From NCBI RefSeq assembly GCF_003545715.1, contig NZ_QVNU01000006.1:1-64000 (forward strand): DNA of 64,000 nt, written 5' to 3'. The DNA comes from Taibaiella koreensis (lineage in GTDB: Bacteria > Bacteroidota > Bacteroidia > Chitinophagales > Chitinophagaceae). Each line of letters opens with the position of its first letter. Position 1 is the first letter of the stretch. Position numbers and translations under genes: made by a program. A model generated the notes under the pieces. That model saw only the letters and a list, made by a program, of their open reading frames with translations. It did no database searches and was not told the DNA's origin. Below, one piece after another: positions 8,133 to 48,048 of the stretch.

Positions 8133-8183
8133 TGTCGGATTGATTTGTAAAAATTGTTTATTGGTTATCTTTTTTTTAGTGAT

Positions 8184-8305
8184 TATCCGGATATAGGAAA
8201 CAGGATACAATTTGCTTCTATATAACGGTTGCTGAGCTTGTCGAAGCACCATCTTTGTCCTTTCGACAAGCTCAAGGACCGGCTTTGTTTTCCTATATCC
8301 GGATA
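8184..8305. repeat. MITE-like long palindromic element, copy 1
   Basis: A 122-bp element with perfect 17-bp terminal inverted repeats: TATCCGGATATAGGAAA (8184-8200) and its complement (8289-8305). An inner perfect 12-bp inverted repeat is GAGCTTGTCGAA (8234-8245) / TTCGACAAGCTC (8262-8273). The core is closely similar to the element at 59343-59474. No coding sequence and no obvious target duplication were seen. It lies between the LamG gene start and the phosphodiesterase-like gene. Confidence 0.75.
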
Positions 8306-18314: not shown

Positions 18315-18358
18315 GAGGTATTTGTTTTTCTTCGGTGATTGTTCATTTGGCATCCAGC

Positions 18359-25426: not shown

Positions 25427-28400
25427 TTAATTACGTACAATCCTGGTTTGGTAGCGTACACCGCTATCGTCAAGGATAACCAGGTGGTACATTCCCTGAG
25501 GTATCCCCTGCAGACGCAACGTGTTCTTATTATTCCCTTTTTGCAGCGATATAGTTTGCTGTAACACCTGACGGCCTGTAATATCTATTAAGCGCAGGGT
25601 TACAACTGCATCGCGCAGGGCATCATGCTCTATGGTCAACGTTTCTTTAGCCGGATTAGGATAGCAGCTAAAGCCACGGCTGTCGCCGAATTCGAGCGAC
25701 CGCACTACGGAATAGGTTTGCTTGCCATCCCGGTCTTCCTGAAGCAGGCGGTAGTAGTTCTTGCCGGTCAACGGCGCCTGATCAGTATAAAGGTAATTGA
25801 GCGTTGCATTGCTATTACCATTCTCCGCCAGGGTACCTACATAGCCGATAGCATTATATTGCTTGCCATCGCTGCTACGCTCTATAACGAAGCGCCGGTT
25901 GTTGCGTTCAGAGGCAGTGGACCAGGTTAAAATGGCTTTATCCTGTGCTTTCTCCGCATCGAAGGAGGTCAGCTCTACCGGGAGCGGCGAACTGTTGGCA
26001 TTGTTGGCATGGATGAAGAACTGACTGAAGGAGGGCGTTGCGAAGCTTACCTTCCAGTAATTCATGATAGCATCCCATGTCACGCTCGCGGGCCGGATGA
26101 GACTGGCTATACCACCGCCAAGGGTACCACCGTCGATCTTGGTGATCACCAGCGTATCGATACCAGCCTGGTCGTTGGGCGCCTGGGGCAGCAGAGGATA
26201 GCCATGTGTTCCGGCATAGGCATTATAGGCATCAAAATCACCCTGGCGGAAGTATAAAGTAACCTGCGCAGGACCATTGTTCTGAGGTATTACTTCATAC
26301 CAGCGCGCTACATAAGGCCGGCCGCCAAATACGGGTACGCTGTTCATCACGGTTACCGTAGCCGTAACGGTACCCAGCGATGCTGTAGGCTGCAGCGAGG
26401 CAATGAGGCCACAACTGCCGTTGTAATAAGAAGTAACCGGGCCACTGGTCTGGCTTCCTGTATTGGAAGAGGCCCCGGGCGCAGAAGTACCGGCAAGATC
26501 GGTCTGGGCGGTATTGGGCGACACGACGAGCGCCACTGTATCCTTACCGGTACAACCGATGGCATCGGTAGCGGTAACTATATAGCTTGTCGTTACCATC
26601 GGACTCACCGTCTGAATGGGCCCGTTCAGGTTACCTGGTTGCCAGGTGTAGGTGAAGCCCGGCGTACCACCCGATGCAATCGCCAGCAGGGGGCTTGATG
26701 TACCGGCACATATAGAAGCGCCGGGTGCTGTATTGACCGTGATCTGTGCACTTTGACCTACCGTAGCGGTACCGGTAGTGCTGCAAGTATTCGCATCGCT
26801 GATAGCGCAGGTATAGGTACCGGCGGCAAGACCACTGGCCGTGGCACTAGTACCGCCGCTGGGCGACCAGCTATAGGTGTAAGGCGGTGTTGCGCCGCTC
26901 ACCGTTACCGTGGCCGTACCATTGGTGCCGCCGAAGCAGGATACATCCGTTTTAGAAGTGCTCACGCTGAATGCAGGCGGTGCGTTTACAGTAGCCGAAC
27001 GGGTGAAGAGGCAGTTATTGGCATCTCTGATGGAGCAGGTATAGGTATTGGCTGCAAGAACACTAGCGCTGGCAGCGGTACCGCCGCTGGGCGACCAGCT
27101 ATAGGTATAGCCGCCTGTGCCGCCGCTTATGCTTACCGTTGCGCTGCCGTTAGTGCCGCCGTTACAGGAAACATCCGTCTTGGAGATAGTCCCCGTTATT
27201 GCTGTCGGCTCCGATACGGTAATGGTCCTAGTGGCCGGACAGTTATTGGCATCTTTGATGTTGCAGGTATAGGTACCAACTGTAAGCCCCGATGCCGTAG
27301 CGCCGGTGCCGCCGCTGGGCGACCAGAGATAAGTATAGCCCGGTGTTGCTCCGGCTACAGTTACGGTTGCCGTACCTGTGTTCCCACCGTTGCACAGCAC
27401 ATCTGTTTTTGAAGTGCTCACACTGAAGGCAGGGGGTTCTCCTACCGTAGCAGAACGGATGATAGAACAGTTATTCGCATCTTTAATAGTACAAGTGTAG
27501 GTACCTGCTGCAAGGCCGGTGATCGTAGCAGTAGTGCCGCTGCCGGGCGACCAGCTATAAGTATAAGGACTGGTACCGCCGCTTGGCGTAACCGTAGCTG
27601 TACCATTACCCCCGCCATTGCACGATAAGTCTGTCTTTGAAGTGATGCCTGTCAGTGCAGTAGGTTCCGATACTGTGACCATCCTGGTGGTTTGGCAATT
27701 GTGCGCATCCTTGATCGTGCAGGTATAAGTATTGGCAGTAAGGCCCGTAGCCGTTGCGCTGGTACCACCACTAGGGGCCCAGCTGTAGGTATAAGGATTG
27801 GTGCCGCCGCTTACCGTTACGCTGGCCGAGCCATTGGTACCGGCGTTGCAGAGCACGTCAACCTTGCCCGTAGTGATCGTATAAGCAGAGGGCTGGCCAA
27901 CCGTAGCACTGGCCGACTGGGTACAGCCAATATTATCGGTTACAAGACAGGTATATGTATTTTGTGTTAACCCGGTCGCTGTAGCAGCCGAGCCGCCGCT
28001 GGGCGACCAGCTGTATGTATAAGGCACAACGCCACCGCTAACGGTTACTGTGGCCGTGCCGTCGTTACCGCCATTACAGGCAACATCTGTCTTTGAAGCG
28101 CCAACATTCATATTACTCACCGTTAGCGTTACGACATTAGAGTTAGCCGTGCCGCAGGTTCCGGTCACGATACACTGGTATTGGTAGCCGTTCATCGCAC
28201 CGGTAGCGCCGGTTACAACAAGTGTGGCAGCGGTAGCACCGCTATAAGGTGGTGTATTGCTGACATTGTTAAAACCACCACCGGTATTCACTTTCCATTG
28301 ATAAGTAATGCCGGTACCGGTTGCATTGACACCGAAAGTTGTGTTGGTGCCATTACAGATCGCCTGGTTCACGGGCTGTGAGGTAACCGCGGGTGCGGTA

Positions 28401-29149
28401 CAAGTGGCACAGCTAAAAGTATACGGCAGCGGGAGTGTGAGCGGATTAGCATCGTCAGTGTTCCAGTTGGCGACATTGAAAATAGCGGTCCGGAGAATCG
28501 CCGGAGAATTCGACACAACAGTACCGTTATAAACAGCATTGTTTACCTCAGGAACCACAGCCAAAGAATTACTGGCATTCAGCGCAGCTGGTAAGGTGGA
28601 TGCGCTTGAAGTCTGATCGCATTGCCCTAAGCTGGTTACCCAATTTCCATCCATATTAAGGCCGGTAATCAGGATCGGCGAGGCCAGTGTGCCCTGGAAA
28701 GCGAAGACCTGGTCGCCGGCAGGAGAAAGACTCATATATTGTCCCGGTGTGGAACCCTGTACCTGTACGCCGGTAACGCTGCCCACCGAAGCCGTGAGCG
28801 TAGGGCCCTGGCATTGTATCTTAACCTGCGTACCGCAGGGCAACGCGCTTGAAGTGCTCCATTTGATCACCCCGTCCGAGGCGGAACCGGTACCGACGCC
28901 ACAGGGGTTGAAATTCTGAAAACCGGTATAGCTGCCTCCTGAGCACCAGCCAAAGTCAGTAAAGCTTATCTCTGTAGTGGCGCTGACATTGGTTAGCAGA
29001 ATAAACGAAAATTCATCATTGGCCACTACGCTTGTGTTGTAGCCAACAATTGCGACGTCGCCGGCAGAAAGTGCGGTTTGTGCGGTTGCCCTGGCGCCCG
29101 TAAGCAACACAAGGAACAACGCAATCACGGAAAGGTAAAACTTGTTCAT
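25427..29149 (-). CDS. SprB-repeat surface protein with T9SS type A signal
   Basis: A 1240-residue exported protein. Signal peptide 1-23 (MNKFYLSVIALFLVLLTG). The N-terminal domain is at about 25-245 (GDVAIVGYNTSVVANDEFSFILL ... NVANWNTDDANPL). An Ig-like domain is at about 250-345. Six tandem SprB repeats of about 76 residues lie at about 346-799, each with 'SKTDVxCNGGxxGTATVTVSGG', 'PYTYSWSPSGG' and 'GLxAxTYTCxIxDANNC'. A last PKD-like unit, a beta-rich domain (WYEVIPQNNGPAQVTLYF) shared with the 41577 protein, the LPVELTSFDAEK pre-CTD module and a T9SS domain (FSCYPNPAKETL ... TRIVRN) follow. SprB repeats are known from the gliding adhesin of Flavobacterium, so a surface adhesin role is likely. 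Confidence 0.92.
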   Translation of the reverse strand: MNKFYLSVIALFLVLLTGARATAQTALSAGDVAIVGYNTSVVANDEFSFILLTNVSATTEISFTDFGWCSGGSYTGFQNFNPCGVGTGSASDGVIKWSTSSALPCGTQVKIQCQGPTLTASVGSVTGVQVQGSTPGQYMSLSPAGDQVFAFQGTLASPILITGLNMDGNWVTSLGQCDQTSSASTLPAALNASNSLAVVPEVNNAVYNGTVVSNSPAILRTAIFNVANWNTDDANPLTLPLPYTFSCATCTAPAVTSQPVNQAICNGTNTTFGVNATGTGITYQWKVNTGGGFNNVSNTPPYSGATAATLVVTGATGAMNGYQYQCIVTGTCGTANSNVVTLTVSNMNVGASKTDVACNGGNDGTATVTVSGGVVPYTYSWSPSGGSAATATGLTQNTYTCLVTDNIGCTQSASATVGQPSAYTITTGKVDVLCNAGTNGSASVTVSGGTNPYTYSWAPSGGTSATATGLTANTYTCTIKDAHNCQTTRMVTVSEPTALTGITSKTDLSCNGGGNGTATVTPSGGTSPYTYSWSPGSGTTATITGLAAGTYTCTIKDANNCSIIRSATVGEPPAFSVSTSKTDVLCNGGNTGTATVTVAGATPGYTYLWSPSGGTGATASGLTVGTYTCNIKDANNCPATRTITVSEPTAITGTISKTDVSCNGGTNGSATVSISGGTGGYTYSWSPSGGTAASASVLAANTYTCSIRDANNCLFTRSATVNAPPAFSVSTSKTDVSCFGGTNGTATVTVSGATPPYTYSWSPSGGTSATASGLAAGTYTCAISDANTCSTTGTATVGQSAQITVNTAPGASICAGTSSPLLAIASGGTPGFTYTWQPGNLNGPIQTVSPMVTTSYIVTATDAIGCTGKDTVALVVSPNTAQTDLAGTSAPGASSNTGSQTSGPVTSYYNGSCGLIASLQPTASLGTVTATVTVMNSVPVFGGRPYVARWYEVIPQNNGPAQVTLYFRQGDFDAYNAYAGTHGYPLLPQAPNDQAGIDTLVITKIDGGTLGGGIASLIRPASVTWDAIMNYWKVSFATPSFSQFFIHANNANSSPLPVELTSFDAEKAQDKAILTWSTASERNNRRFVIERSSDGKQYNAIGYVGTLAENGNSNATLNYLYTDQAPLTGKNYYRLLQEDRDGKQTYSVVRSLEFGDSRGFSCYPNPAKETLTIEHDALRDAVVTLRLIDITGRQVLQQTISLQKGNNKNTLRLQGIPQGMYHLVILDDSGVRYQTRIVRN

Positions 29150-29232: not shown

Positions 29233-30156
29233 TCACATAAATGCCATACCACTGCGTATCCCAAAGCCGGCCAATGCGAACCCGGGCAAAAAGCCTTCTT
29301 CTGTAAACACGACGTCGGCCCTGATCACCGTATTATCTTTGCAGGCGATCCTTAGTCCTTTGACTTCATCAACAGTCAATAGGGTACCGGGAGTTGCCTT
29401 GCTACCGCCTTCATCTGCTACAATACTCACATAGCTCAGACCTATCGTCCAGCCATTCAACCGGGCCGGCGCTCCTTTATTCCATGGATTGCAAGCGTTG
29501 ACCAGCCTCTGTACCGCAGCCGCATCCATACTGCTCCATTCGATCCATAGGTCCTGGGGGTTCGGCCGATCGTACCAGGAAGCCTGGGTATCATCCTGCG
29601 TCGCTTCTGTTATTGTGCCCGCTTGCATTTGCTGCAGCAGCTTTCCGCTCAGCTCCATGCCGCTAAAACCCAGCCCTGCAACGATCATTCCAAAAGTGGC
29701 CCCTGGCAGTATCGGCATTTTGCTGCTGAGCAGCATCGGTCCCTCGTCGATCCCGGCGGTCATCCGGTGGACTGTAACCCCGGTTTCTGCAACGCCGTTA
29801 CGGATCATCCAGAAAAGCGGATTCGCCCCCCGGTATTCCGGAAGGGGCGCATAATGAAAATTAATAAAGCCTGACGGTGGTATGCTTAGCACTGATTCCG
29901 GTATTTTCCAGGGGAAGGTTTTTACCCATACTGCATCTGGTCCGGTCTCCCTAACCCATGCTTCAAGGTCGGGGGCAAAAGTTGCCTTTTTGAATAGCCG
30001 CAGGGGAACGCCATATTGGTTGCACATCATATGTACCACAGCCTGAACCTCGCTTTGCCGTGCCGTCATACCGACACCCGCTATGATCTTCATCTGTAGC
30101 AATTGATTCAGTGCCGGTAGTGCCAGGCGATCGTTACAAAGGATCAGCAGCTTCAT
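29233..30156 (-). CDS. Formyltransferase-fold enzyme of the tail-collar operon
   Basis: A 307-residue protein of the methionyl-tRNA formyltransferase / GART-like fold. The catalytic block is NFHYAPLPEYRGANPLFW (Asn-x-His, then L-P-x-Y-R-G) followed by GVTVHRMTAGIDEGPML with its Asp. These match the N-10-formyltetrahydrofolate-binding and catalytic segments of the family, but the usual 'HxSLLPxxRG' Ser is changed to Tyr-Ala-Pro. A diverged C-terminal domain (about 210-307) differs from Fmt. I start at ATG 30156, right after the upstream gene's TGA; ATG 30168 would overlap that gene. It is the last gene of the operon that includes three tail-collar proteins, so sugar or peptide N-formylation of a partner is possible; that is inference. 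Confidence 0.83.
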   Translation of the reverse strand: MKLLILCNDRLALPALNQLLQMKIIAGVGMTARQSEVQAVVHMMCNQYGVPLRLFKKATFAPDLEAWVRETGPDAVWVKTFPWKIPESVLSIPPSGFINFHYAPLPEYRGANPLFWMIRNGVAETGVTVHRMTAGIDEGPMLLSSKMPILPGATFGMIVAGLGFSGMELSGKLLQQMQAGTITEATQDDTQASWYDRPNPQDLWIEWSSMDAAAVQRLVNACNPWNKGAPARLNGWTIGLSYVSIVADEGGSKATPGTLLTVDEVKGLRIACKDNTVIRADVVFTEEGFLPGFALAGFGIRSGMAFM

Positions 30157-30158
30157 GG

Positions 30159-31304
30159 TCAGGTGCATAAATAGTTATTGAACCATCCCGAGGTAATTCC
30201 CTGGGGGCGGTCTTGCAATACTTTCAGATGTTCATCCGGAGCGACAGCAACCTCATCGTGTATCTTAAGCGCCGCTTTTTTATTGCTATCGTTCAGCATT
30301 TCGGCAAAATACAAAGGGCCGTAGGCTGTTTGTGTCTGGGGATGGAAGGTTATAGCACCTCTGGGACTTTCGTAAGACCATCCTTCCTGCAGCATTTCCA
30401 TAACGGCATCCTCTTGCTTACCGGCACCGGCCAGTAGCTGTGCGCAAATGATACCGGCCTCCCAGCCCAACAGATGGAAGACATTGGCGGTTTTACCCTT
30501 TTGCTCTGCGACAAAGTCGATGAATGCTTTATTACTGTCCCGTTCCAGTACCGATGCCCAGGGTATATAGGCATAAAAACGGGCATCCGGCAGCGTATAA
30601 GTAGCCATAGTTTGCTCTTCGGCCATGAAGGCCGAGCAATGAAAAGCCATATCGCCGGGTAATTGCTCGGCAGACAAGCCATTGAGAAACAGAGATGCCA
30701 GGTAAGTGCTGAAGCAAGCGAGCACCGGCGCATTCTGTTCTTCCCGTACAGCCTTTATAAAGGGCTGTACGGAAAATTCAGATTCTTTGTAGTGGCTTAC
30801 GAAATTGTGCACAACAGCGCTACCGCCTTCTTCGGCACCACGAGCGTGCGCATTGGGCCCGCCATAACCACCGTCGTAAAATGAAGTGGCCAGAATAACG
30901 CCTTTCGCACTTTCCGCTGCCTTCCTTCCGGAAAGGTAGTTGGCATGCAAACCCTGGAGCGAAATATGCAAAGCGCGCTTGCCCGGTGCTGCATCGGGAT
31001 AATTCATGCCCGGATCCAGCACGATCAGCGTTTTACCCGCTGCATCAAACAGCGGGTATAAAGAGGCTGCATTGGCCGGAGTAAGGTAGGCAATCACGCA
31101 ATCGGCTTCATCCTGCAGCAACAGTTTTTCCGCCTTGGCGTAGATTACCTTCCTGTCTTCTCCAAAGCCGATGTTTTCGGGAATTGTCTTTATCGCTTCA
31201 AGATTATCGTATTTCAGTCTGCAGCGCAATCCGTCCAGTAAATCGAAACCCATTGCCGGATAATCGGTCGAACGTGGCAATAATATTCCGATCTTCTTTT
31301 CCAT
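30159..31304 (-). CDS. Periplasmic-binding-protein-type-1-like protein without a signal peptide
   Basis: A 381-residue protein with the Leu/Ile/Val-binding (peripla_BP_6-like) fold. It opens MEKKIGILLPRSTDYPAMG, runs through strand motifs such as DCVIAYLTPANAASLYPLFDAAGK and VILATSFYDGGYGG, and ends GITSGWFNNYL. There is no signal peptide or lipobox, so it should stay in the cytoplasm, unlike transport-linked relatives. No ABC permease or ATPase genes are nearby. It sits 26 bp after the third tail-collar gene and abuts the formyltransferase gene, which indicates translational coupling. A ligand-sensing or chaperone role for the operon is a guess. Confidence 0.8.
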   Translation of the reverse strand: MEKKIGILLPRSTDYPAMGFDLLDGLRCRLKYDNLEAIKTIPENIGFGEDRKVIYAKAEKLLLQDEADCVIAYLTPANAASLYPLFDAAGKTLIVLDPGMNYPDAAPGKRALHISLQGLHANYLSGRKAAESAKGVILATSFYDGGYGGPNAHARGAEEGGSAVVHNFVSHYKESEFSVQPFIKAVREEQNAPVLACFSTYLASLFLNGLSAEQLPGDMAFHCSAFMAEEQTMATYTLPDARFYAYIPWASVLERDSNKAFIDFVAEQKGKTANVFHLLGWEAGIICAQLLAGAGKQEDAVMEMLQEGWSYESPRGAITFHPQTQTAYGPLYFAEMLNDSNKKAALKIHDEVAVAPDEHLKVLQDRPQGITSGWFNNYLCT

Positions 31305-31330
31305 AATACTTTATTTTTTCAATTGAAACA

Positions 31331-31867
31331 TTAGCCCCTTGCAGGAAACACACCATACATGCAAATAACATAGTTAAGCCCCAGGTATGGCGGTACGATG
31401 CTATAGGCCTGGTTGTTTCCAATGTTAGACATTTGTACGGCAACGCTATAGGGTTTCATCTGCACGCCACCCGATCCGGAATAACCACTGCCATTGGCCG
31501 CATAGATGCTGCCCCCCGGAGAGGACGTATTGCCCGTGTCGTCATAGCTTGAAGAATGCGCTACGATCTGTAACGGGTGAATGTGCGCCGGCATCTGGTT
31601 TAAACTAAGGGTAACATTTTCGGAGCCGCCCATTTGACCCAGGCTGTACGGAGACAGACCCGGCCCTTGCCCTGCACCCACGACCCTTCTTCCTGAAAGA
31701 TTGGGCAGTCCGAACGTGGTGGTACCATTACCACCGTAAACAGTACCGAGTATAGAAAACAGAGCAGTGTTCTGTGCAATAGGAATAATTTGTCCCTGAC
31801 AGTAAGCCCAGTTTTTGGGGGCGAAATTGCCCGCGAATAAAGTTGTAAATCCGATTACGCCTTCCAT
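31331..31867 (-). CDS. Tail-collar domain protein 3 (MdpB-like)
   Basis: A 178-residue protein of the phage tail-collar / microcystin-dependent (MdpB) group. It starts with the conserved block TLFAGNFAPKNWAYCQGQ, followed by IAQNTALFSILGTVYGGNG and TFGLPNLSGRRVVGAGQG. The middle carries the LSLNQMPAHIHPL helix-His motif. A variable Gly/Ser-rich loop is at about 100-145. The end is the conserved PPYLGLNYVICMYGVFPARG. It has no signal peptide. It is the third of three tandem paralogues (gap of 20 bp to the second). Related phage domains form trimeric receptor-binding tips, but no other phage genes are present. Confidence 0.9.
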   Translation of the reverse strand: MEGVIGFTTLFAGNFAPKNWAYCQGQIIPIAQNTALFSILGTVYGGNGTTTFGLPNLSGRRVVGAGQGPGLSPYSLGQMGGSENVTLSLNQMPAHIHPLQIVAHSSSYDDTGNTSSPGGSIYAANGSGYSGSGGVQMKPYSVAVQMSNIGNNQAYSIVPPYLGLNYVICMYGVFPARG

Positions 31868-31887
31868 TGTTAGTTAATTTTTTAGGG

Positions 31888-32436
31888 TTAATTTCTGCTG
31901 GGGAATATTCCCTCTGTGCAAATAATGTAATTCATCGCCAGGTAAGGAGACAGATTGCTTACGGGTGTGCTACCGCCGGCTATAGGCGTGTTGCTTAGCG
32001 CGGAAGTGGGCGCCAGCTGACCATCGCCGGTCACAGTGGTATACCTGCTGCTAAAATCGGCTGGCACATTACCTGCAGGATTGCTTTGGTTGCCGGAATC
32101 ATTAAATGCACCGGGAGCACCGGTAACAGAGAGTACTACGTGGTTATGCATCGGCAGGTTGGAGGACAGCAAGGTCGTTTGCTCCGTTCCTGCAGCCTGA
32201 CCCAGGATATAATTGGGTTGACCCGGGCCCTGACCGGTGCCTACAGCCGACCTTCCCCTCAGATCGGGAAGAGCAAAGGTAGTAACGCCGTCGCCCCCGT
32301 AGGTTGTGCCCAGCAACGCGTATAAGGCAGTATTGGCAGCGATGCTCTGCAGGGAACCATTACAGAAAGCCCAGCTAAGTGGTGCAAAGTTGCCGGCGAA
32401 TATAGTGACTGTAGCTAAATAAGGATCTACAAACAT
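31888..32436 (-). CDS. Tail-collar domain protein 2 (MdpB-like)
   Basis: A 182-residue paralogue of its neighbours. Conserved blocks: TIFAGNFAPLSWAFCNGS, IAANTALYALLGTTYGGDG, TFALPDLRGRSAVGTGQG, the LSSNLPMHNHVV helix, and the terminal SPYLAMNYIICTEGIFPSRN. It differs from the first and third mainly in the Gly/Thr-rich central loop (about 100-155) and in having Glu instead of Met in the last strand (CTEGIF). No secretion signal is visible. It lies 50 bp after the first paralogue, in the same operon. Confidence 0.9.
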   Translation of the reverse strand: MFVDPYLATVTIFAGNFAPLSWAFCNGSLQSIAANTALYALLGTTYGGDGVTTFALPDLRGRSAVGTGQGPGQPNYILGQAAGTEQTTLLSSNLPMHNHVVLSVTGAPGAFNDSGNQSNPAGNVPADFSSRYTTVTGDGQLAPTSALSNTPIAGGSTPVSNLSPYLAMNYIICTEGIFPSRN

Positions 32437-32486
32437 TTTCCTGATTGATTAATAGTTAGTAAATGGGAATAAGGATCCATCCAGTA

Positions 32487-33026
32487 TTAGTTTCTGGAAG
32501 GGAATATGCCATACATACAGATAATGTAATTGAGCGCCAGGTAAGGCGATTGGTTGTTATAAGGAATGCTGGCCCCTGATACACCTATGGTAGTGTTATA
32601 GGTAGGCGCAGTCATCGTCGCATCGGGCACGCTGTTGCTATAACCGTTGTTAAGCATACCCGGAAAGTTGCCGCCTGGCTCACCGGTAGCACCATTGGTC
32701 GCATTGGCTTGCAGAGCAATGTTAGCGCTTCCGTTGTGGTTGTGCGCAGGAAGGTTGGCAATCATCAGGGTTGTGTTGGCATTACCCGACACCTCTCCCA
32801 AGACATAATTTTCGCCGCCGGCTAATTGACCTGTGCCCAAAGGCATTCTGCCACGAAGATCGGGCAGTCCAAACGTTACCCGGCCATCGCCTCCGTAAGT
32901 TGTTCCCAGCAAGGAGAAGAGGGCTGTGTTCTGGGCGATGGAGAGGAGCTGTCCATAACAATATGCCCAGTTTTTCGGAGAGAAATCGGCAGCCCATGTA
33001 GTGACTACTGCCATAGTACCTTCCAT
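32487..33026 (-). CDS. Tail-collar domain protein 1 (MdpB-like)
   Basis: A 179-residue first gene of the tail-collar operon. Conserved blocks: TTWAADFSPKNWAYCYGQ, IAQNTALFSLLGTTYGGDG, TFGLPDLRGRMPLGTGQL, the MIANLPAHNHNG helix, and the end SPYLALNYIICMYGIFPSRN. The central variable loop is Asn/Gly-rich. The three proteins share the ends and differ in the middle, as expected for a trimeric tip with a variable head. The start at ATG 33026-33024 gives the family's usual N-terminus. It is divergent from the unknown gene at 33470, with a 443-bp region in between. Confidence 0.9.
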   Translation of the reverse strand: MEGTMAVVTTWAADFSPKNWAYCYGQLLSIAQNTALFSLLGTTYGGDGRVTFGLPDLRGRMPLGTGQLAGGENYVLGEVSGNANTTLMIANLPAHNHNGSANIALQANATNGATGEPGGNFPGMLNNGYSNSVPDATMTAPTYNTTIGVSGASIPYNNQSPYLALNYIICMYGIFPSRN

Positions 33027-33469: not shown

Positions 33470-33898
33470 ATGAGCGAATTCTCACATCCGCCGGTTCCCG
33501 AGGATCAGGCAATTGCATGGACCACTAACTGGAGAAACTACTATGGCTCCATCACCGGTACCGATCCCAATGATGCCCTGAGGGCTTTCAAGATTCCCCT
33601 GGAAGATCTGCAGGCACTGGTAGATATGGCCAAGGACGATAACAATATTGATTCGGTAAGGGCTTATCTCGCGCTCACCGAAGATCGCGTGGGCGATGTG
33701 ATCAATGCCAGTGAGGTGCATATTGTGCTTGTTCCGGTAGCCAAAAACCCAAACATCATGCCACCTGTACCCGATCCCGGTATTGATATACTGCAGGCAT
33801 CGAAGGCTGGTAAAACTGTTTCTACCATCATGGACTTCACTACACCCTGCCCGGCCATGTGCGATTTTCAGAGCCCACTGTACGGCATTAAAGAATAA
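33470..33898 (+). CDS. Small unknown protein heading a sensor-kinase operon
   Basis: A 142-residue soluble protein with no signal peptide or recognised domain. It begins SEFSHPPVPEDQAIAWTTNW, has acidic helices in the middle (IPLEDLQALVDMAKDD, RAYLALTEDRVGDV), and ends with two Cys in a short stretch (TTPCPAMCDFQSPLYG). It reads like a small globular alpha/beta protein, and I do not recognise it. A -7-like box and clear start at 33470 support it as a real gene. It is 11 bp before the membrane-protein gene, so it belongs to the same unit as the kinase and regulator. A role as a sensed or secreted partner is only inferred from position. Confidence 0.8.
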   Translation: MSEFSHPPVPEDQAIAWTTNWRNYYGSITGTDPNDALRAFKIPLEDLQALVDMAKDDNNIDSVRAYLALTEDRVGDVINASEVHIVLVPVAKNPNIMPPVPDPGIDILQASKAGKTVSTIMDFTTPCPAMCDFQSPLYGIKE

Positions 33899-33909
33899 TC
33901 ACCTATCCT

Positions 33910-34542
33910 ATGCCTGGAATTTATGCTAGTATCGTTGTGCCGGGAACCATCCTGCTGCCGGTTACTATTGCTATTATCAGGCAAGGTTATCGCGAAGGCC
34001 CGGGCAAAATGATCTTTATCTACCTGCTCCTGGCCGGCTTTTTCAATATCCTGGCGGCCGTTCTGGCTGCCAGGAGTATTAATAACCTACCTTTCCTGCA
34101 CCTGTACACCGTATTGGAGTTTGGCATCATCACCGCTTTCTTTTACACCGCATCTTCTACCCTCCAGGAAAAAAAACTGATCCGCTGGCTCTGGATTCTA
34201 TTCCCTGTACTTGCCCTCCTGAACATCCTTCACTTGAACTCGATCTACCTCTATAACCTTATCCCACGCTCGGTTGAGGCCCTGATCGTTCTTATTTTAT
34301 GTATTCACTTCCTGATGAAAAGCCTGAGCTTTTCGGCAGCTCCCGTTCCTTTCTTTAATTTTGCTATAGTAGTGGCGCTGCTCCTGTACTTCTCCGGTTC
34401 CCTGGCTTTGTTTGCCTTATCCGATTTTATTATCGCCAATAAAACGATCAACCGGCTAATCTGGACTACACATGCTACCTTTGTATTAATCATGTACCTT
34501 ATTATTGCCGTAGCCTATTACAAAAACGGGAAAGAACAATGA
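33910..34542 (+). CDS. Polytopic membrane protein of the signalling operon
   Basis: A 210-residue protein with about seven hydrophobic segments (for example 6-23, 36-54, 64-81, 92-110, 118-137, 147-171, 183-203) and no enzymatic motif. The short loops and compact helix set resemble sensor-type membrane modules that sit beside soluble kinases. Its stop overlaps the start of the kinase gene by four bases (ATGA at 34539-34542), so translation of the two is coupled. It could be the input module for the kinase, which itself has only one N-terminal helix. The family name is not known to me. Confidence 0.78.
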   Translation: MPGIYASIVVPGTILLPVTIAIIRQGYREGPGKMIFIYLLLAGFFNILAAVLAARSINNLPFLHLYTVLEFGIITAFFYTASSTLQEKKLIRWLWILFPVLALLNILHLNSIYLYNLIPRSVEALIVLILCIHFLMKSLSFSAAPVPFFNFAIVVALLLYFSGSLALFALSDFIIANKTINRLIWTTHATFVLIMYLIIAVAYYKNGKEQ

Positions 34543-35354
34543 TCTACGTTTACGTTATCGTGGGAATGTGCAGTTCATTTTTATTGGCCCTGGCTCTTTT
34601 ACTTTTTTATCTCCGTTATAAGAAGAATATTCTGCAACAGCAATTCCAGATCCAGCAGAAAGAGCTGGACTATCAGAAAAAGCTGACGCAGGTAATCATC
34701 ACTTCACAGGAACAGGAGCGGAAGCGGATAGGAAAGGAGCTGCACGACGATGTGGGCAACGCCCTGGCCTCGCTTCGTCTTTACCTGGACAAGTACTTGT
34801 ACCTGCCCAACCAGGATAACGTTGCGATCAAGGAAGAATACAAGAAACGGATAGGTTCCATTTTCAATAAGCTACGTACCATCAGCCACCAGTTATCGGT
34901 TGCGGAGATCGAGCTGTTCGGCCTCCGGGAAGCCTTATTCATGCTGAGTGAGCATATCGAGCAATCGGGCGCATTTACCATTAACATCGATGAATCGAAA
35001 ATCAGGATACCGGAATCGCTGGAATACGATACCGCGGTGATCATCTACCGGGTATTCCAGGAGCTGCTGACCAATACGATCAAGCATGCCGGCGCCAATA
35101 AGGTAGACATAGGCTTTGAACAGCATGTGGTATCGGGAGAGCTTATTATCCGCTATGCAGACAACGGCAAAGGTTTGTCATCGAACACACTGCTCCACGG
35201 GCTTGGATTTAAGAACATTGAAAGTCGTTTACAGGCTGTAAACGGCTACTATAATATAGACAGGGAAACCAAAAAGGGATTCGTAATGAATATCTTTATC
35301 CCCGAATTAGAGCTAGTACGGCCTAGCTATGCGCCGGTGACCGAACCAATCTAA
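34539..35354 (+). CDS. HisKA_3-type sensor histidine kinase
   Basis: A 271-residue kinase of the NarX/DegS class. One N-terminal transmembrane helix (about 4-25) is followed by a Gln-rich coiled coil (31-58). The dimerisation/phospho-acceptor helix EQERKRIGKELHDDVGNALA has the phosphorylated His at 69. The C-terminal ATPase domain has the N-box ELLTNTIKHAGAN and the G-box YADNGKGLSS ... HGLGFKNIESR. It has no periplasmic sensor domain of its own. The partner regulator gene begins 13 bp downstream. Together with the overlapping membrane-protein gene it forms a three-component signalling unit. Confidence 0.92.
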   Translation: MIYVYVIVGMCSSFLLALALLLFYLRYKKNILQQQFQIQQKELDYQKKLTQVIITSQEQERKRIGKELHDDVGNALASLRLYLDKYLYLPNQDNVAIKEEYKKRIGSIFNKLRTISHQLSVAEIELFGLREALFMLSEHIEQSGAFTINIDESKIRIPESLEYDTAVIIYRVFQELLTNTIKHAGANKVDIGFEQHVVSGELIIRYADNGKGLSSNTLLHGLGFKNIESRLQAVNGYYNIDRETKKGFVMNIFIPELELVRPSYAPVTEPI

Positions 35355-35367
35355 ATAGTGCCTTTTT

Positions 35368-36039
35368 ATGAACCAGATCAGCTTAGCCATAGTCGACGAC
35401 CAGGAGCTATTCCGGCAGGGTATCATCGCCTTGATGAGTAAGATCCCGCAAGTGAAATTGGTCGCCGATGCCGCTTCCGGAACAGCGTTGCTCCAATACC
35501 TGGCCGGGAGCCCGCTTTTACCTGATATTGTTTTAATGGATATGGAAATGCCGGGCATGAACGGCATAGAGCTTAACCGCGCCCTCCACCAGCAATACCC
35601 CGATATCAAAGTGATTATGCTTACCCTCTACGACCAGGGACGCTATGTATTCAAAATGGTGGAGGAAGGCGTATGTGGCTACTTGTCCAAGAGTTGTAGT
35701 ATGGAGGAATTGCAGGAAGCGATCGTCAAAGTGCATACTTCCGGCTTCTTCTTCACAGACCTGATCAAAAATGCACTGCAGCAATCTTCAGATTTCAGGA
35801 AAAAGCAGCCGCTGCATTTCAACAGCAATGTGGCCGACCTTACCGTAAGGGAAAAAGAGATCATGAACCTGATCTGCAAAGAATACACCAATACCGAAAT
35901 TGCTGAGAAACTATTCATCAGCCCCCGTACCGTCGAAGGGCACCGGAACAACCTATTGATGAAGACCGGCAGCAAAAACACCGCCGGCCTCGTTGTATTC
36001 GCTATTAAGCATGGCATTTATGATGTGGTGATCCACTAG
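35368..36039 (+). CDS. NarL-family response regulator
   Basis: A 223-residue regulator and cognate partner of the kinase encoded immediately upstream. Receiver domain 1-125 with D10-D11 (IVDDQELF), phospho-acceptor D58 in IVLMDMEMPG, and Lys in YLSKSCS. LuxR-type helix-turn-helix about 155-215 (LTVREKEIMNLICKEYTNTEIAEKLFISPRTVEGHRNNL). It is last in the 33470-36039 operon. Possible targets include the divergent tail-collar operon, given the paired hairpins at 33187 and 33317; that is inference. The convergent nuclease gene ends 26 bp beyond its stop, and no terminator was seen between them. Confidence 0.92.
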   Translation: MNQISLAIVDDQELFRQGIIALMSKIPQVKLVADAASGTALLQYLAGSPLLPDIVLMDMEMPGMNGIELNRALHQQYPDIKVIMLTLYDQGRYVFKMVEEGVCGYLSKSCSMEELQEAIVKVHTSGFFFTDLIKNALQQSSDFRKKQPLHFNSNVADLTVREKEIMNLICKEYTNTEIAEKLFISPRTVEGHRNNLLMKTGSKNTAGLVVFAIKHGIYDVVIH

Positions 36040-37369: not shown

Positions 37370-40300
37370 ATGATGAAATCCTTTACCCGGCCGGCCCTGG
37401 TATTGCTCACCATGTGGATGAGCCAGGCCCTGCACGCCCAGAGTGTCATTACGCAATGGAACTTCAATTCCGCCACGCCGGACAACGATCTTAGCACCGG
37501 TACTACCAATCCTTCCACCGGCGCCGGTACCTTAACGGTTATCGGTGGCCTGACACCCAACTTTGCCTCCGCCAACGCCAGCGGTGGTTCCAGTGATCCC
37601 ATCACTGCCGATAATTCAGGACTGGGATTGACCAGCTTTCCAACCCAGGGCACTGCGAATAAAACAGCAGGCATCCAGTTTGCCGCAGCTACCACAGGCT
37701 ATCAGGACATCCGGATCACCTTCGACCTGCGCCATAGCAATACCGGCCCGGCCAACCTGCAATTACAATACACCACCAATATCACTGCCACCACACCGGC
37801 ATGGACCGATTTCCAGGGTGCAGCTGCTACCGGCGGAGACGCGTGGTTTCCCCGCAACTTTGACCTGAGCACGGTCCCGGCACTGAACAACAATCCCAAT
37901 GCCGGTTTCCGGATCGTATCGGCCTTTGCTTCCGGCACCAGCTACGCAGCCTCCAATAGTGGCAGCAACTATGCTCCTGCCGGCACCTGGCGTTTTGATA
38001 TGGTCAGCGTTAAAGGCACATCGACAGCAGGCGACAATACACCACCTGTAGCCAACAGCGCGGCGGCCATCAACAGCACGACTTCCTATATCAAGTTCAA
38101 CGAGCCGCTTTCAGCCGCCAGCGCCGGCACGCTGTCGCACTATACTTTTACACCTTCGCTGACGATCAGCACCGCTACCCTCAGCCCAACAGGAGATACG
38201 GTTTGGCTCAGCCATGCAGCCTTGTCCGACGGTCAGCCCTATACCCTGGACGTTAACGGTGTCCAGGACCTTGCCGGCAATACCATGAGCGCCGCCAGCT
38301 TCAACCTGCTGTTCAACGCAGCGCTGCCGCCGCTGGTGATCACCGAGATCATCCACTCTCCTAACGATATCGAGATGATCGAGATCTACAACCCTGGCCC
38401 TACAGCCATTCCCCTGGGTGGTCTGAAATGGACGGACGGTACAACCGGCGCCTTTCCGGTGATGACATTGCAACCCGACAGCGCCATTATTTTTGCCACA
38501 GCACCCACAACCGCCTCAGCAAGCCTTCATGTCAATACCGTTTATACTATCAACAATGGTCTTGGCTCTACCGACGACATCCTCGTAATTCGTAATGGTC
38601 TCAATCAGGTGATCGATTCCGTTGCTTATTATGTAGGCATCAACGGATGGCCCTCCGCCCCCACCGGTACCTATGGTTACTCCTTTGAACTGAATAATGC
38701 CACGAACGACAATAACCTCGGCAGCAACTGGGCCGTACCCCTCAATACGGTAAGCCCGCAACCTGCCGGCGGTGTGGTACGGGCCACTCCAGGCAAATAT
38801 CCTGCCCCTGCCATCGCACCCACCGCGACGGTAAGCTTTGTCGGCACCAAAACCAATGTTTCGGAGAATAGTACAGAAGTGGCCATCGTAGCCAATCTTA
38901 CCGGTGGTGGCGCCAGCCCCGCTTCTATCGACCTGGAGCTGTTACCTATCGGTACCGCCACCAGCGGAAGCGATTTTACCCTGCCTGCCGATATGCAGTT
39001 CAACTGGCCGGCTAATGCGAATAATGTAAATGACACCATCCGCATCACGATCAATAATGATGTCCTCGCCGAGCCTTCCGAATACTTTATCCTGCGCCTC
39101 AGCAATCCTGTGAACACTATAGCTCCCGGCGCTGCGGCCAACAATTTTACCGTATTCATCCAGGATGACGATTTTACTGCTCCTGCGCCCAGCAATAACC
39201 TTGTACTGAACCACCTCAATTCCTTCAGCAATGGCCCTGCCGGTCCCAATTCGGCCGAGATCGTGGTGCATGACCCCGCCTCACAACGCCTGTTCATCGC
39301 CAATTCGCTTGGCGCCAAACTGGATATTGTAGATTTTGACAATCCGGCAGCCCCGGTATTGCTTCAGTCTGTTTCGATAACGCCCTACGGCAATATCAAC
39401 TCTGTAGTGGTAAAGAACGGCATCGTAGCGGCAGCCGTAGAAAGCGCCGATCCGCAAACTGCCGGTAAGGTTGTCTTTTTCGATACCAACGGCGTCTTCA
39501 TCAACCAGGTAACGGTAGGGGCCATGCCCGACATGATCGTATTCAACCATGCCGGGACCAGAGTGCTTACGGCCAATGAAGGCGAACCCAATACTGCTTA
39601 CACTTCCGATCCCGAAGGATCGGTCTCTATCATTGATATTTCCGGCGGCATTCCAGGTCTTACGCAAGCCAATGTAAGCACGGCAGCATTTACCGCTTAC
39701 AACAGCCAGGTAGCTACGCTGAAAGCATCCGGGGTCCGTATCTTCGGCCCGGGGGCCACTGTAGCGCAGGATATAGAACCCGAATACATTACGATCTCGG
39801 CTGATGATCAGACGGCATGGGTAACCTGCCAGGAAAACAATGCCCTGGCCACCCTTGATCTGCAGACGGCGACGATCACGGCGCTCCGTCCTTTGGGCAC
39901 CAAAGATCATATGCAGACCCGGAATGCGCTCGACGCCAGCGACCAGGGCGGCGTAGTTCAGATCGCCAACTGGCCGGTTAAAGGTTTGTATATGCCCGAC
40001 GCTATCACTTCCTTTAGTACAGGTGGTCAGACTTACCTGCTCACCGCCAATGAAGGCGACTCCCGCGAATACAACGGCTATTCGGAGATCAAGCGCCTCA
40101 GCGATGCTTCCTATGTACTGGATCCCGTGGCTTTCCCATATCCTGAAGCCATTAAGGCCAATATCGGGCGGCTCAACATTACCACAGCTTCGGGCGATAC
40201 CGATAATGACGGCGACTTTGATGAGATCCACGCTTACGGCGGCCGCTCCTTTTCCATATGGAATGCTACGACCGGTGCCCTGGTATGGGACAGCGGCGAC

Positions 40301-41215
40301 GATATGGAGCAGATCATCGCACACCATCCGGTATTCGGTCCCTTGTTCAATGCCAGCAATGCCAACAATACCTTCAAGAACCGCAGCGACGATAAAGGCC
40401 CCGAGCCGGAAGGGATTACTGTAGCCACGATCAACAATAAAGTATATGCTTTTGTCGCCCTGGAAAGGATCGGAGGCTGCATGGTGTACGACATTACCAA
40501 TCCGGCGGCTCCCGTATTCAGCGACTATAAGAATACCCGTACCATCGCCTCTTATGGCGGCGACCAGGGTGCGGAAGGTATCATGTACATCAAGCCCGAA
40601 GATTCACCCAACGGTTCCGGAATATTGATCCTGGCCAACGAAGTCTCCTCCACGCTGGCGATCTTCCAGGTACAGGACAATACGCCGCTGGCGATCAAGC
40701 TCACCGGTATCCAGGCAACGAATGTGAACAGCCGCAACCGCATTGACTGGAACAGCGCCAGCGAAGACATCGGTGATAGGTATGAGCTGGAAAAAAGCAC
40801 CGATGGACAGCACTTCAACACCCTGGCCGGGATTACAGCAAAAGGTAATGCCGCCGCTTATACTTACTGGGACGAGCAACCAGCCACTGGCTGGACCTAT
40901 TACAGGCTGAAGCTGAGCAATACCGGCAACGACTATAGCTATAGCCAGATCGTAAAGGCCTACCAGGAAAAGGACAATGCCTTCCGCCTGAACGCCTATC
41001 CCAATCCGGCCAGCGATGCCCTGGTTGTATCCGTAAACCAGTTTGATCATGAAGCTACAGTGACATTACGCGATGTCAGCGGCAAAATAGTGCTGCAGGA
41101 ACAAATGACAGCACCTTCTGTCCGGTTGGATATGAAGCGCATGCCCGCAGGCATTTATATGCTGCACTACAAAGACGGTGCGCATGCCGTGCATATGAAG
41201 CTAAGCAAACAATAA
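37370..41215 (+). CDS. Choice-of-anchor I secreted protein with LTD and Calx-beta domains, T9SS signal
   Basis: A 1281-residue exported protein. Signal peptide 1-24 (start at 37370 or the adjacent ATG 37373). Domains in order: an N-terminal beta domain (25-218); a SbsA-like Ig domain (about 220-315, PPVANSAAAINST ... VQDLAGNTMS); a lamin-tail domain (about 320-450, PLVITEIIHSPND ... IEIYNPGPT); a Calx-beta domain (about 480-605, ENSTEVAIVANLTGG ... VFIQDDDF); a choice-of-anchor I beta-propeller (about 610-1105, ending DGDFDEIHAYGGRSFSIWN ... EGIMYIKPEDSPNG); a pre-CTD module; and the T9SS domain (FRLNAYPNPASDAL ... HMKLSKQ). The promoter box TAATCTTTGC lies about 25 bp before the start. A surface-exposed calcium-dependent adhesive or hydrolase-like propeller is likely. 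Confidence 0.92.
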   Translation: MMKSFTRPALVLLTMWMSQALHAQSVITQWNFNSATPDNDLSTGTTNPSTGAGTLTVIGGLTPNFASANASGGSSDPITADNSGLGLTSFPTQGTANKTAGIQFAAATTGYQDIRITFDLRHSNTGPANLQLQYTTNITATTPAWTDFQGAAATGGDAWFPRNFDLSTVPALNNNPNAGFRIVSAFASGTSYAASNSGSNYAPAGTWRFDMVSVKGTSTAGDNTPPVANSAAAINSTTSYIKFNEPLSAASAGTLSHYTFTPSLTISTATLSPTGDTVWLSHAALSDGQPYTLDVNGVQDLAGNTMSAASFNLLFNAALPPLVITEIIHSPNDIEMIEIYNPGPTAIPLGGLKWTDGTTGAFPVMTLQPDSAIIFATAPTTASASLHVNTVYTINNGLGSTDDILVIRNGLNQVIDSVAYYVGINGWPSAPTGTYGYSFELNNATNDNNLGSNWAVPLNTVSPQPAGGVVRATPGKYPAPAIAPTATVSFVGTKTNVSENSTEVAIVANLTGGGASPASIDLELLPIGTATSGSDFTLPADMQFNWPANANNVNDTIRITINNDVLAEPSEYFILRLSNPVNTIAPGAAANNFTVFIQDDDFTAPAPSNNLVLNHLNSFSNGPAGPNSAEIVVHDPASQRLFIANSLGAKLDIVDFDNPAAPVLLQSVSITPYGNINSVVVKNGIVAAAVESADPQTAGKVVFFDTNGVFINQVTVGAMPDMIVFNHAGTRVLTANEGEPNTAYTSDPEGSVSIIDISGGIPGLTQANVSTAAFTAYNSQVATLKASGVRIFGPGATVAQDIEPEYITISADDQTAWVTCQENNALATLDLQTATITALRPLGTKDHMQTRNALDASDQGGVVQIANWPVKGLYMPDAITSFSTGGQTYLLTANEGDSREYNGYSEIKRLSDASYVLDPVAFPYPEAIKANIGRLNITTASGDTDNDGDFDEIHAYGGRSFSIWNATTGALVWDSGDDMEQIIAHHPVFGPLFNASNANNTFKNRSDDKGPEPEGITVATINNKVYAFVALERIGGCMVYDITNPAAPVFSDYKNTRTIASYGGDQGAEGIMYIKPEDSPNGSGILILANEVSSTLAIFQVQDNTPLAIKLTGIQATNVNSRNRIDWNSASEDIGDRYELEKSTDGQHFNTLAGITAKGNAAAYTYWDEQPATGWTYYRLKLSNTGNDYSYSQIVKAYQEKDNAFRLNAYPNPASDALVVSVNQFDHEATVTLRDVSGKIVLQEQMTAPSVRLDMKRMPAGIYMLHYKDGAHAVHMKLSKQ

Positions 41216-47228: not shown

Positions 47229-48048
47229 GCTTTTATTTTTTGCCTTGTACGAAGGTAGCTTAAAAAGGTAGCTTACATACCCTAAAAGGTACCTTATCAT
47301 TATAGGAAGAAGATGTTCTATGCATTTCATTTATCAATATATTTAAATTATAAACAGCGCGGTTAAAGAATAGAGTCATCTTGTTAAGCCTATCAGCGCA
47401 ACTGATCAACCTATCATACTTTAGCCACAAAGACAACTATTTAAATACTCTTAGTAATAATACTAGCAATGGCCTATGCATCTTTCTCCGGAAAAAATCC
47501 TCATTCATTATTTAACAATTAATTAAACAGTTACGGTAAAATAAAGTAAAATATAAATTTATAAACTAAACAAAAATAATTATGTAAAATAGACAATAAA
47601 ATACAATATATAATGCGAAGATGTTTCACAATTAGAGATACTCCCTTGTAATTCTTCAATATAGCTGTCGTATAAATGCTACAAAATAAAAGAAAGGCTG
47701 ATTAAAATGCATAATAAACACTGTACGCCTGCTATTTTATCTCACACTTCGAATATTAAATGTTAGAAAAACATTAACACACCATCTACTTTTGCATCGT
47801 CATTTCTTACAGGTTTTTACCTGGCTTTAGGGGGTGAGAGAAGAAGCACGCTCCCACAAACGAATAACTTATTCAGCGCCCGGTACTGGTAAGATTTGAA
47901 CGAGAGAAAAAGGATTTTCCCGGATTAGCCTTTCATTCAAATTGAATAAAAAATCATGTGAAAACATGATGGGGATCGCTTTGTGTTTTTAAAAATGAAT
48001 TAATAAATTTTATATACAACCAACCCACCTTTGTTATTATTATCCTTT
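47229..48048. other. AT-rich intergenic region and long leader of the SdrD-like gene
   Basis: About 820 bp without a gene; 47320-47820 is visibly richer in A+T than the genes around it. Near its left end are three direct copies of AAGGTA(G/C)CTTA (47252-47262, 47265-47275, 47286-47296) upstream of the VOC gene. A TACTTTTGC box at 47787-47795 is the likely promoter of the gene starting at 48049, leaving a leader of about 245 nt. The leader contains a perfect hairpin ATCATGT-GAAA-ACATGAT (47953-47970). No riboswitch family was recognised. Confidence 0.6.

Follow-up and report, generated by a model that had tools for sequence, protein, structure and literature searches.

A conserved operon of six genes in Taibaiella koreensis encodes three tail-collar proteins (p1, p2 and p3), a periplasmic-binding-fold protein (PBP), a formyltransferase and, as its sixth member, a giant T9SS-secreted repeat protein at 25427–29149. 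We give a probability of roughly 40% to the reading that the collar proteins, probably all three kinds together, form one metal-bound trimer that serves as the ligand-binding tip of an adhesin on the cell surface and is modified by an N-acyltransferase. The collar domain family is already known; the multi-gene locus and its rules are new.

The five genes from p1 to the formyltransferase are all real and lie on the minus strand of the window, by which we mean the whole 64,000-nucleotide stretch analysed, with transcription running from 33026 to 29233 in the order collar, collar, collar, PBP, formyltransferase. The collar genes encode p1 (179 aa, 32487–33026, PF07484 88.4 bits), p2 (182 aa, 31888–32436, 89.3 bits) and p3 (178 aa, 31331–31867, 84.2 bits), with gaps of 50 bp between p1 and p2 and 20 bp between p2 and p3. 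The PBP gene (381 aa, 30159–31304) follows p3 after 26 bp and overlaps the formyltransferase gene (311 aa, 29233–30168) by 10 bp, and the giant gene, also on the minus strand, begins 83 bp beyond. A sequence-only reading had described three collar ORFs of about 180 residues with matching ends and divergent centres, closely followed by a binding-fold protein without a signal peptide and a formyltransferase-fold enzyme. All of this held, the collar ORFs being 178–182 aa and scoring 84–89 bits against a PF07484 cut-off of 24, the ends and centres appearing in the alignment as described, and the two downstream proteins carrying the respective Pfam domains.

Homology of the collar proteins to the receptor-binding head of T4 gp12 spans nearly the whole head, beyond the 57-aa collar. 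Positions 5–171 of 179 in a profile of 24 collar proteins matched positions 14–196 of 198 in 1ocy (E = 1e-08), and this profile alignment places the collar HxH motif on the HKH of T4 gp12, which we take to be its metal-binding ligands. An HxH motif within residues 71–125 was present in all 132 collar units from 44 trios. In the window it is encoded at 32736–32744 (p1), 32140–32148 (p2) and 31577–31585 (p3), and H95 and H97 of p1 and H97 and H99 of p2 were invariant in the eight rows aligned. Structure prediction of the collar monomer was too poor for a fold search (pLDDT 48, pTM 0.17). Unlike T4 gp12, the collar proteins are stand-alone genes of ~180 aa, usually three paralogues, and have no shaft. 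The homology and the aligned ligands suggest that the three genes may each supply one chain to a single metal-bound trimer of the T4 short-tail-fibre head type, without shaft or baseplate.

The collar protein carries a phage domain and hits PHROGs tail families, as might be expected of a prophage or tailocin tail remnant retained by chance, yet this explanation is highly improbable and was rejected on several counts. A PHROGs scan of 20 ORFs from the window, including one for a collar protein, turned up no further convincing tail genes, which agrees with the earlier claim that other phage structural genes are lacking and sets the locus apart from phage T4. The protein at 4515–8252 matched “virion structural”, “baseplate” and “major tail” PHROGs, but its Pfam domains are LamG, fn3 and a T9SS sorting domain. 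Gene order is kept across distant genera, partner types recur across phyla, and PBP matches were absent from all phage records searched. Collar matches occurred in 321 phage records, all below 60% identity, and the collar profile retrieved 140 relatives from viral contigs, of which 80 loci were kept. Beyond the three collar genes, the T. koreensis genome has no PF07484 match.

Trios were also present outside the phylum of the window, in Deinococcota, Pseudomonadota and Bacillota. Hand-grouping of short-collar clusters in 149 genomes of the window’s class gave 12 triplets, five pairs and four singles (n = 21), three being both the commonest and the largest number. The p1, p2 and p3 proteins each fall in a clade of seven rows, with support of 91, 95 and 96, respectively, p1 grouping with L004–L009. 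Separate clades were also seen within cluster types (39 label changes vs 63.1 when shuffled, 0 of 200 shuffles as low), but across the whole tree p1, p2 and p3 are not one-to-one, the starred branches forcing at least 7–8 changes per label. Instead of mixing, each gene could form its own trimer with its own ligand, giving three adhesive tips of different specificity, a somewhat unlikely arrangement which does not conflict with the tail remnant above or with the cytosolic assembly and the modified scaffold discussed below. The divergent centres fit different ligands, and in L083 and L098 each of the three collar proteins has its own Sec-like signal. Furthermore, L028–L032 carry otherwise the same operon with one collar gene (two loci) or two (three loci), hence mixed chains are not obligatory there. 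Homotrimers sit less well with the ceiling of three genes, with the fusion of three collar units into one 547-aa protein in L090, and with L075, L089 and L091, where a complete Tat-like signal is found on p3 only. No relative of the three-in-one protein was found in the viral contigs searched.

The five-gene order, which the sequence-only reading had proposed looking for in other genomes, is present in 17 distinct loci, and in all 16 where the sequence continues a giant or GN-domain gene follows on the same strand. Across 49 trio loci, a formyltransferase was found in 21, a GNAT acetyltransferase in 16 and both in none, while eight had neither of these nor a PBP; the PBP loci L040 and L041 are without a formyltransferase. 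An ORF of at least 450 aa or a GN ORF lay within 4 kb of 43 of the 49 trios. In some other phyla the large neighbour gene is on the opposite strand (Comamonas, Paenibacillus and Ensifer), a point against the adhesin-tip reading. In the class sample, a PBP, formyltransferase or GNAT was beside 12/12 triplets vs 3/9 pairs and singles (Fisher p = 0.0015, under a grouping picked after the loci had been seen). Neither the giant secreted protein in the same gene run nor the wider family in which GNAT replaces the formyltransferase had featured in the sequence-only reading.

Other modifying enzymes are encoded near some trios. Asp/Asn hydroxylase genes are recurrent neighbours, and L085 carries on a single strand the trio, a formyltransferase, an HprK-like kinase, a sulfotransferase-like protein, PqqD, B2 and AsnB, with similar gene sets near the trio in L073, L086 and Azospirillum L099. 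The collar proteins could accordingly be imagined as targets or carriers for enzymes of ribosomal peptide chemistry, namely the formyltransferase, GNAT, hydroxylase, lasso-type AsnB, B2 and PqqD, the modified protein or peptide serving in signalling or antagonism. The lasso-type genes, however, occur in four of the loci examined and are absent from the window operon, and we judge the explanation improbable.

The operon enzyme has the N-terminal catalytic and C-terminal domains (PF00551 and PF02911; 74.1 and 40.3 bits) of methionyl-tRNA formyltransferase (Fmt) and the ArnA formyltransferase domain. It also shares with them N103, H105 and D141, invariant in the six rows aligned and presumably the Asn-x-His and Asp catalytic residues, as in Fmt. 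Of 29 copies, 26 showed the catalytic pattern; it was missed in L073 and in two fragments at contig ends. A housekeeping role as Fmt was rejected, as the enzyme scores 114.8 bits against TIGR00460, far under the cut-off of 201.5, and a separate canonical fmt (274.6 bits) is encoded elsewhere in the genome. In the adhesin-tip reading the formyltransferase, or GNAT elsewhere, might N-acylate a component before export, or might make a small N-acyl ligand held by the PBP.

The PBP scored 64.4 bits for Peripla_BP_6 (cut-off 31.7), its domain beginning at residue 4. Its AlphaFold2 model (pLDDT 86.7, with residues 370–381 below 50) has the type I periplasmic-binding fold, with 4ey3 as top Foldseek match (E = 1.6e-19, TM 0.73) and the cytosolic amide sensor AmiC at rank 12 (E = 1.1e-16). 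This fold is common to ABC solute-binding proteins and AmiC. By comparison with these, the PBP lacks a signal peptide, the operon encodes no permease or ATPase, and a C-terminal tail with the motif W-x-N-x-Y-x-C, in the part of low model confidence, is conserved in 29 of 31 matches. The PBP was rejected as an ordinary ABC transporter subunit; in the adhesin-tip reading it would act with the trimer complex via this tail.

The giant protein (1240 aa) consists of an N-terminal domain of ~250 aa, SprB repeats (221.8 bits) and a T9SS C-terminal sorting domain (Por_Secre_tail, 51.9 bits); judged by eye, its N-terminus is hydrophobic and signal peptide-like, ending in AQT. The repeats and sorting domain are shared with SprB-type T9SS adhesins of Bacteroidota, whereas the collar-operon location and the N-terminal domain are not. 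The latter was found in 11 loci and in L191, each time within the giant of this operon, with no Pfam family in the nine members scanned and no meaningful match in the PDB (one match, E = 0.048). Giant T9SS proteins are common in the window, which counts against the adhesin-tip reading. With the trimer as the ligand-binding tip of the adhesin, the giant protein encoded downstream would be its stalk and anchor.

Evidence on export is mixed. None of the five window proteins has a signal peptide, and no Tat-like gene was found in the window, L004–L009 or L033–L039. TatC is encoded in the genome. Collar relatives with signals make up five trios (the Sec-like L083 and L098 and the Tat-like L075, L089 and L091), all without PBP, formyltransferase and GNAT. 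These are hence not close models of the window operon and their export may not carry over, which takes weight from the adhesin-tip reading and adds it to a cytosolic one. Tat-like signals also occur on proteins encoded beside GNAT- or PBP-type trios, and on the PBP itself in L092 and L082, two distant PBP relatives beside GNAT-type trios. A crude count of Tat signals near trios (11/194 ORFs) vs further away (8/282) was not significant (p = 0.15); inspected by eye, L027 and L095 among the eight distant positives look real, the rest being shadow ORFs or membrane proteins. The Ruegeria pomeroyi exoproteome includes the pfam07484 collar protein YP_165745.1, according to a passage of PMC4949626.

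In lineages of the window type, the trio, PBP and formyltransferase may be a cytosolic assembly that senses metals or ligands or modifies small molecules, with the giant protein merely a co-regulated neighbour. The lack of export signals, the different type of the signal-bearing trios and the resemblance of the PBP to AmiC are in its favour, as are the two-component genes that adjoin the operon divergently on the plus strand. These encode a histidine kinase (34539–35354; HATPase_c, HisKA_3) and a LuxR-type response regulator (35368–36039; Response_reg, GerE), both candidate regulators of the operon with homologues adjoining it in L004, L009 and L027–L031. A neighbouring divergent module, also on the plus strand, includes a 142-aa protein (33470–33898), with homologues adjoining the operon in L004 and L027–L032, and a 210-aa protein of membrane-bound look, by eye (33910–34542), with a sequence homologue in L004 only. 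We consider the cytosolic assembly somewhat unlikely in view of the Sec or Tat signals on collar relatives, the Tat-like signals on the two distant PBP relatives and the giant or GN-domain gene downstream in every one of the 16 loci. The earlier suggestion of a domesticated tip is partly supported: it gained from the gp12-head homology, the conserved order, the signals in some relatives and the exoproteome report, and lost from the missing signal peptide here. Under the adhesin-tip reading, the complex would in some relatives be exported by Sec, or already folded by Tat with one signal common to the chains.

A search of the literature, apart from preprints and most subscription papers, returned no recognised description of the trio locus. 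Collar-domain or phage-tail-like genes are known from bacteria outside phages, as in the window, namely RhiB of Rhizobium leguminosarum, where rhiABC is under quorum-sensing control, and MrpB of Microcystis. The passages concerned describe a single collar or tail gene beside RhiA or MrpA, with no mention of a trio or of a PBP, an acyltransferase or a giant protein. Our literature comparisons draw on passages of PMC13133039, PMC3174227, PMC10949449, PMC4949626, PMC4149787 and PMC11448079.

A wider and, taken whole, unlikely proposal is that a homotrimeric phage head became a three-gene heterotrimer which folds and is loaded with metal in the cytosol, formylated or acetylated, and exported complete, in several lineages by Tat with one signal on a chain or partner, as the tip of giant surface proteins, forming an unnamed cross-phylum organelle. 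If true, bacteria of at least four named phyla would be using the receptor-binding tip of a phage as a recognition device that stands alone, equipped with a modifying enzyme and an export solution of its own. This would also provide a natural heterotrimer whose ancestor was a homotrimer, offer a clean way to test Tat export of complexes bearing one shared signal, and give a function to many genes outside phages that are labelled merely “tail fiber protein”.

The three phage-tail-collar proteins (PF07484; p1, p2 and p3 in gene order) lead an operon on the minus strand of the window, at 32487-33026, 31888-32436 and 31331-31867, followed by a periplasmic-binding-fold protein (PBP, 30159-31304), a formyltransferase (29233-30168) and a giant of 1240 aa (25427-29149) that combines SprB repeats with a T9SS sorting domain. 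The gaps in transcription order are 50, 20, 26, -10 and 83 bp, and the trio accounts for every PF07484 match in the whole Taibaiella genome. A histidine kinase, a LuxR-type regulator and proteins of 142 and 210 aa form a divergent module, common to L004 (L numbers denote collar-type loci from other genomes or records); as homologues of the kinase and regulator adjoin the operon in L009 and L027-L031, this module may control the operon. T9SS sorting domains are common in other window proteins (4515-8252, 15687-18353, 37370-41215, 48031-51720, 59480-61099), some with LamG, NHL, lamin-tail, Calx-beta or Ig-like domains.

The five-gene order picked out in the sequence-only reading recurs in relatives. 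A PBP-based genome scan gave seven loci, five with the complete order and two (L008, L010) where the contig stops in or before the formyltransferase. PBP was encoded at E ≤ 1e-30 in 16 of 395 genomes drawn from the phylum, the window's own counted, always directly after collar genes (three in eleven, two in three, one in two), and the formyltransferase came after it in 14, L040 and L041 being without one. Among all loci examined, which were found via PBP or collar genes and so do not sample either at random, the order occurred 18 times; 17 of these are distinct, L008 and L188 apparently being a single contig, identical in length and proteins. The next same-strand gene was a large ORF of at least 553 aa in 15 of the 16 loci with continuing sequence; L191, the remaining one, has a GN-domain ORF of 291 aa there.

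An N-terminal domain of ~250 aa, with a consensus like L-x-x-GDI-x-F-x-G-Y ... FSFVLL ... I-x-FTD-x-G, is common to the giants of many window-type clusters and is present at this operon position in 12 loci (window, L004, L033-L041, L191); we found no Pfam family and no convincing PDB relative for it. In L005-L007, L009, L027 and L190 the domain model did not match the giant in the corresponding position, and by eye these proteins have the appearance of secreted repeat proteins. Part of the giant gene in L038 (10540-12195) is unknown bases in the stored genome.

A profile built from 24 collar proteins matched almost the entire head of the T4 short tail fibre (1ocy 14-196, E 1e-08), aligning the collar H-x-H with the HKH of gp12, and H-x-H within residues 71-125 was kept in 132/132 units from 44 trios. 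Profile and motif together establish head homology and a metal motif, and the collar proteins very probably trimerise. A single chain modelled with AlphaFold2 reached a poor pLDDT of 48, which an intertwined trimer or just a thin alignment may explain, so this model weighs neither for nor against trimerisation.

Three was also the usual copy number. Short collar ORFs in 149 class genomes (open frame <265 aa, strong match; grouped by hand, leaving out longer frames and any match that was partial or weak) formed 21 clusters: 12 triplets, five pairs, four singles and none larger. PBP, formyltransferase or GNAT adjoined 12 of 12 triplets versus three of nine pairs and singles (Fisher p 0.0015, for a grouping chosen after the loci were seen), and L090 carries three collar units fused as one 547-aa protein. 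In a tree of 132 units the window group split into separate p1, p2 and p3 clades of seven rows each (support 91, 95, 96), as did L033-L039 (93, 96, 85), and over the whole set of units position labels changed 39 times versus 63.1 when shuffled (0 of 200 shuffles as low). The labels were not one-to-one over the whole tree, and some trios clustered by genome (L027, L083, L098 wholly; L010, L074, L082, L090 in part), so by this topology three collar genes have been reached, or homogenised, more than once. One or two collar genes suffice in L028-L032. Within the single genus of L027-L032, one, two or three stand in an otherwise same operon, and the closeness of the three L027 copies in the tree has the look of a recent re-triplication. 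We lean modestly towards mixed chains in the collar trimer.

The window formyltransferase retains N103, H105 and D141, and the catalytic pattern was found in 26 of 29 copies, the misses being L073 and two contig-end fragments. The enzyme is distinct from the housekeeping Fmt. The PBP model was good (pLDDT 86.7) and had mostly aromatic-acid-binding proteins as top fold matches, urea-binding proteins and AmiC also ranking close. In this model confidence is low over the last twelve residues, but 29 of 31 copies close with W-x-N-x-Y-x-C or something similar, the exceptions being the two Tat-type copies; conservation of a tail that lacks predicted structure suggests that it docks to a partner. By eye, the motif (window 30162-30197, and homologues) resembles NYIIC near the collar C-terminus.

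Trios extend to plasmids, occurring in nine of the ten records opened from 70 with a collar match. The Deinococcus order is large gene-trio-PBP-GNAT; the others are from Comamonas, Paenibacillus, Pseudoalteromonas, Aminobacter, Ensifer, Tateyamaria, Azospirillum and Rhizobium, and a Hymenobacter plasmid has a single collar gene between two large genes. GNAT accompanies eight of these nine trios by annotation or profile, Tateyamaria being without it. Across all 49 trio loci examined, not a random sample, at least one of PBP, formyltransferase and GNAT was present at 41 and none at eight (L074, L075, L081, L083, L089, L090, L091, L098). Within 4 kb, formyltransferase occurred at 21/49, GNAT at 16/49 and both at 0/49; PBP co-occurred with formyltransferase in 18, GNAT in two and neither in four. 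Since each of the two enzymes attaches a small acyl group, most often to an amine, they may fill one role. A large or GN ORF lay within 4 kb of 43/49 trios, sometimes on the opposite strand, a count that shadow ORFs in high-G+C loci can inflate.

DUF6916 and Asp/Asn hydroxylases were other recurrent neighbours, as were lasso-type AsnB/B2/PqqD genes, present in four loci. The lasso-peptide-like sets contain or adjoin trios (L085:146-7360, L073:5381-11861, L086:4829-11275, L099:489-7666) and comprise AsnB, B2, PqqD and an HprK-like kinase, L085 adding a sulfotransferase-like protein. Asp/Asn beta-hydroxylase (L008:1877-5053, L010, L073, L082, L095, L190, L191, L195) often comes with a weakly sulfotransferase-like protein and a 160-180 aa HEAGH-motif protein.

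No signal peptide was seen on the five window proteins (trio, PBP, formyltransferase). In relatives, where signals were judged by eye and with scripts rather than a dedicated predictor, Sec-like signals start all three collar proteins in L083 and L098, and L075, L089 and L091 have a twin-arginine motif with hydrophobic core on p3 only, their p2 having the RR motif without the core. These five loci, all without PBP, formyltransferase and GNAT, establish that export is possible for collar trios, though not that it extends to the window type. Tat-like signals within 1.5 kb of trios occur on PBP in L092 and L082, on DUF6916 in L081, and on other neighbours in L010, L040, L041, L072 and L076-L079; PBP or GNAT is present at most such loci. 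A signal moving between proteins would be expected were a single one enough for a folded complex. Enrichment of Tat-like signals by distance from trios was not significant (11/194 versus 8/282, p 0.15), and the stretches examined at the window, L004-L009 and L033-L039 contained no Tat-like gene; TatC is encoded in the window genome. Related Tat-signal proteins, metallophosphatase-like by eye, adjoin three trios (L041:4341-5333, L072:8280-9221, L010:3496-4206), and the two scanned (L041, L072) matched no Pfam family. Independently, a published study of Ruegeria pomeroyi reports a pfam07484 protein in the exoproteome of this bacterium, which earlier seawater experiments had also yielded (PMC4949626).

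Comparison of these loci establishes a conserved gene order, a usual number of three and export signals in some relatives. Beyond this, three different collar chains would form one trimer, which in Taibaiella would sit at the cell surface and dock on the giant, with N-acylation of a component; we put the whole chain at about 40%. Bacterial collar proteins are already known (RhiB and MrpB). Searches of open-access literature, most subscription papers and preprints being outside their reach, turned up no recognisable description of the trio locus. We therefore regard the locus, whose proposed function is putative, as new in its arrangement.
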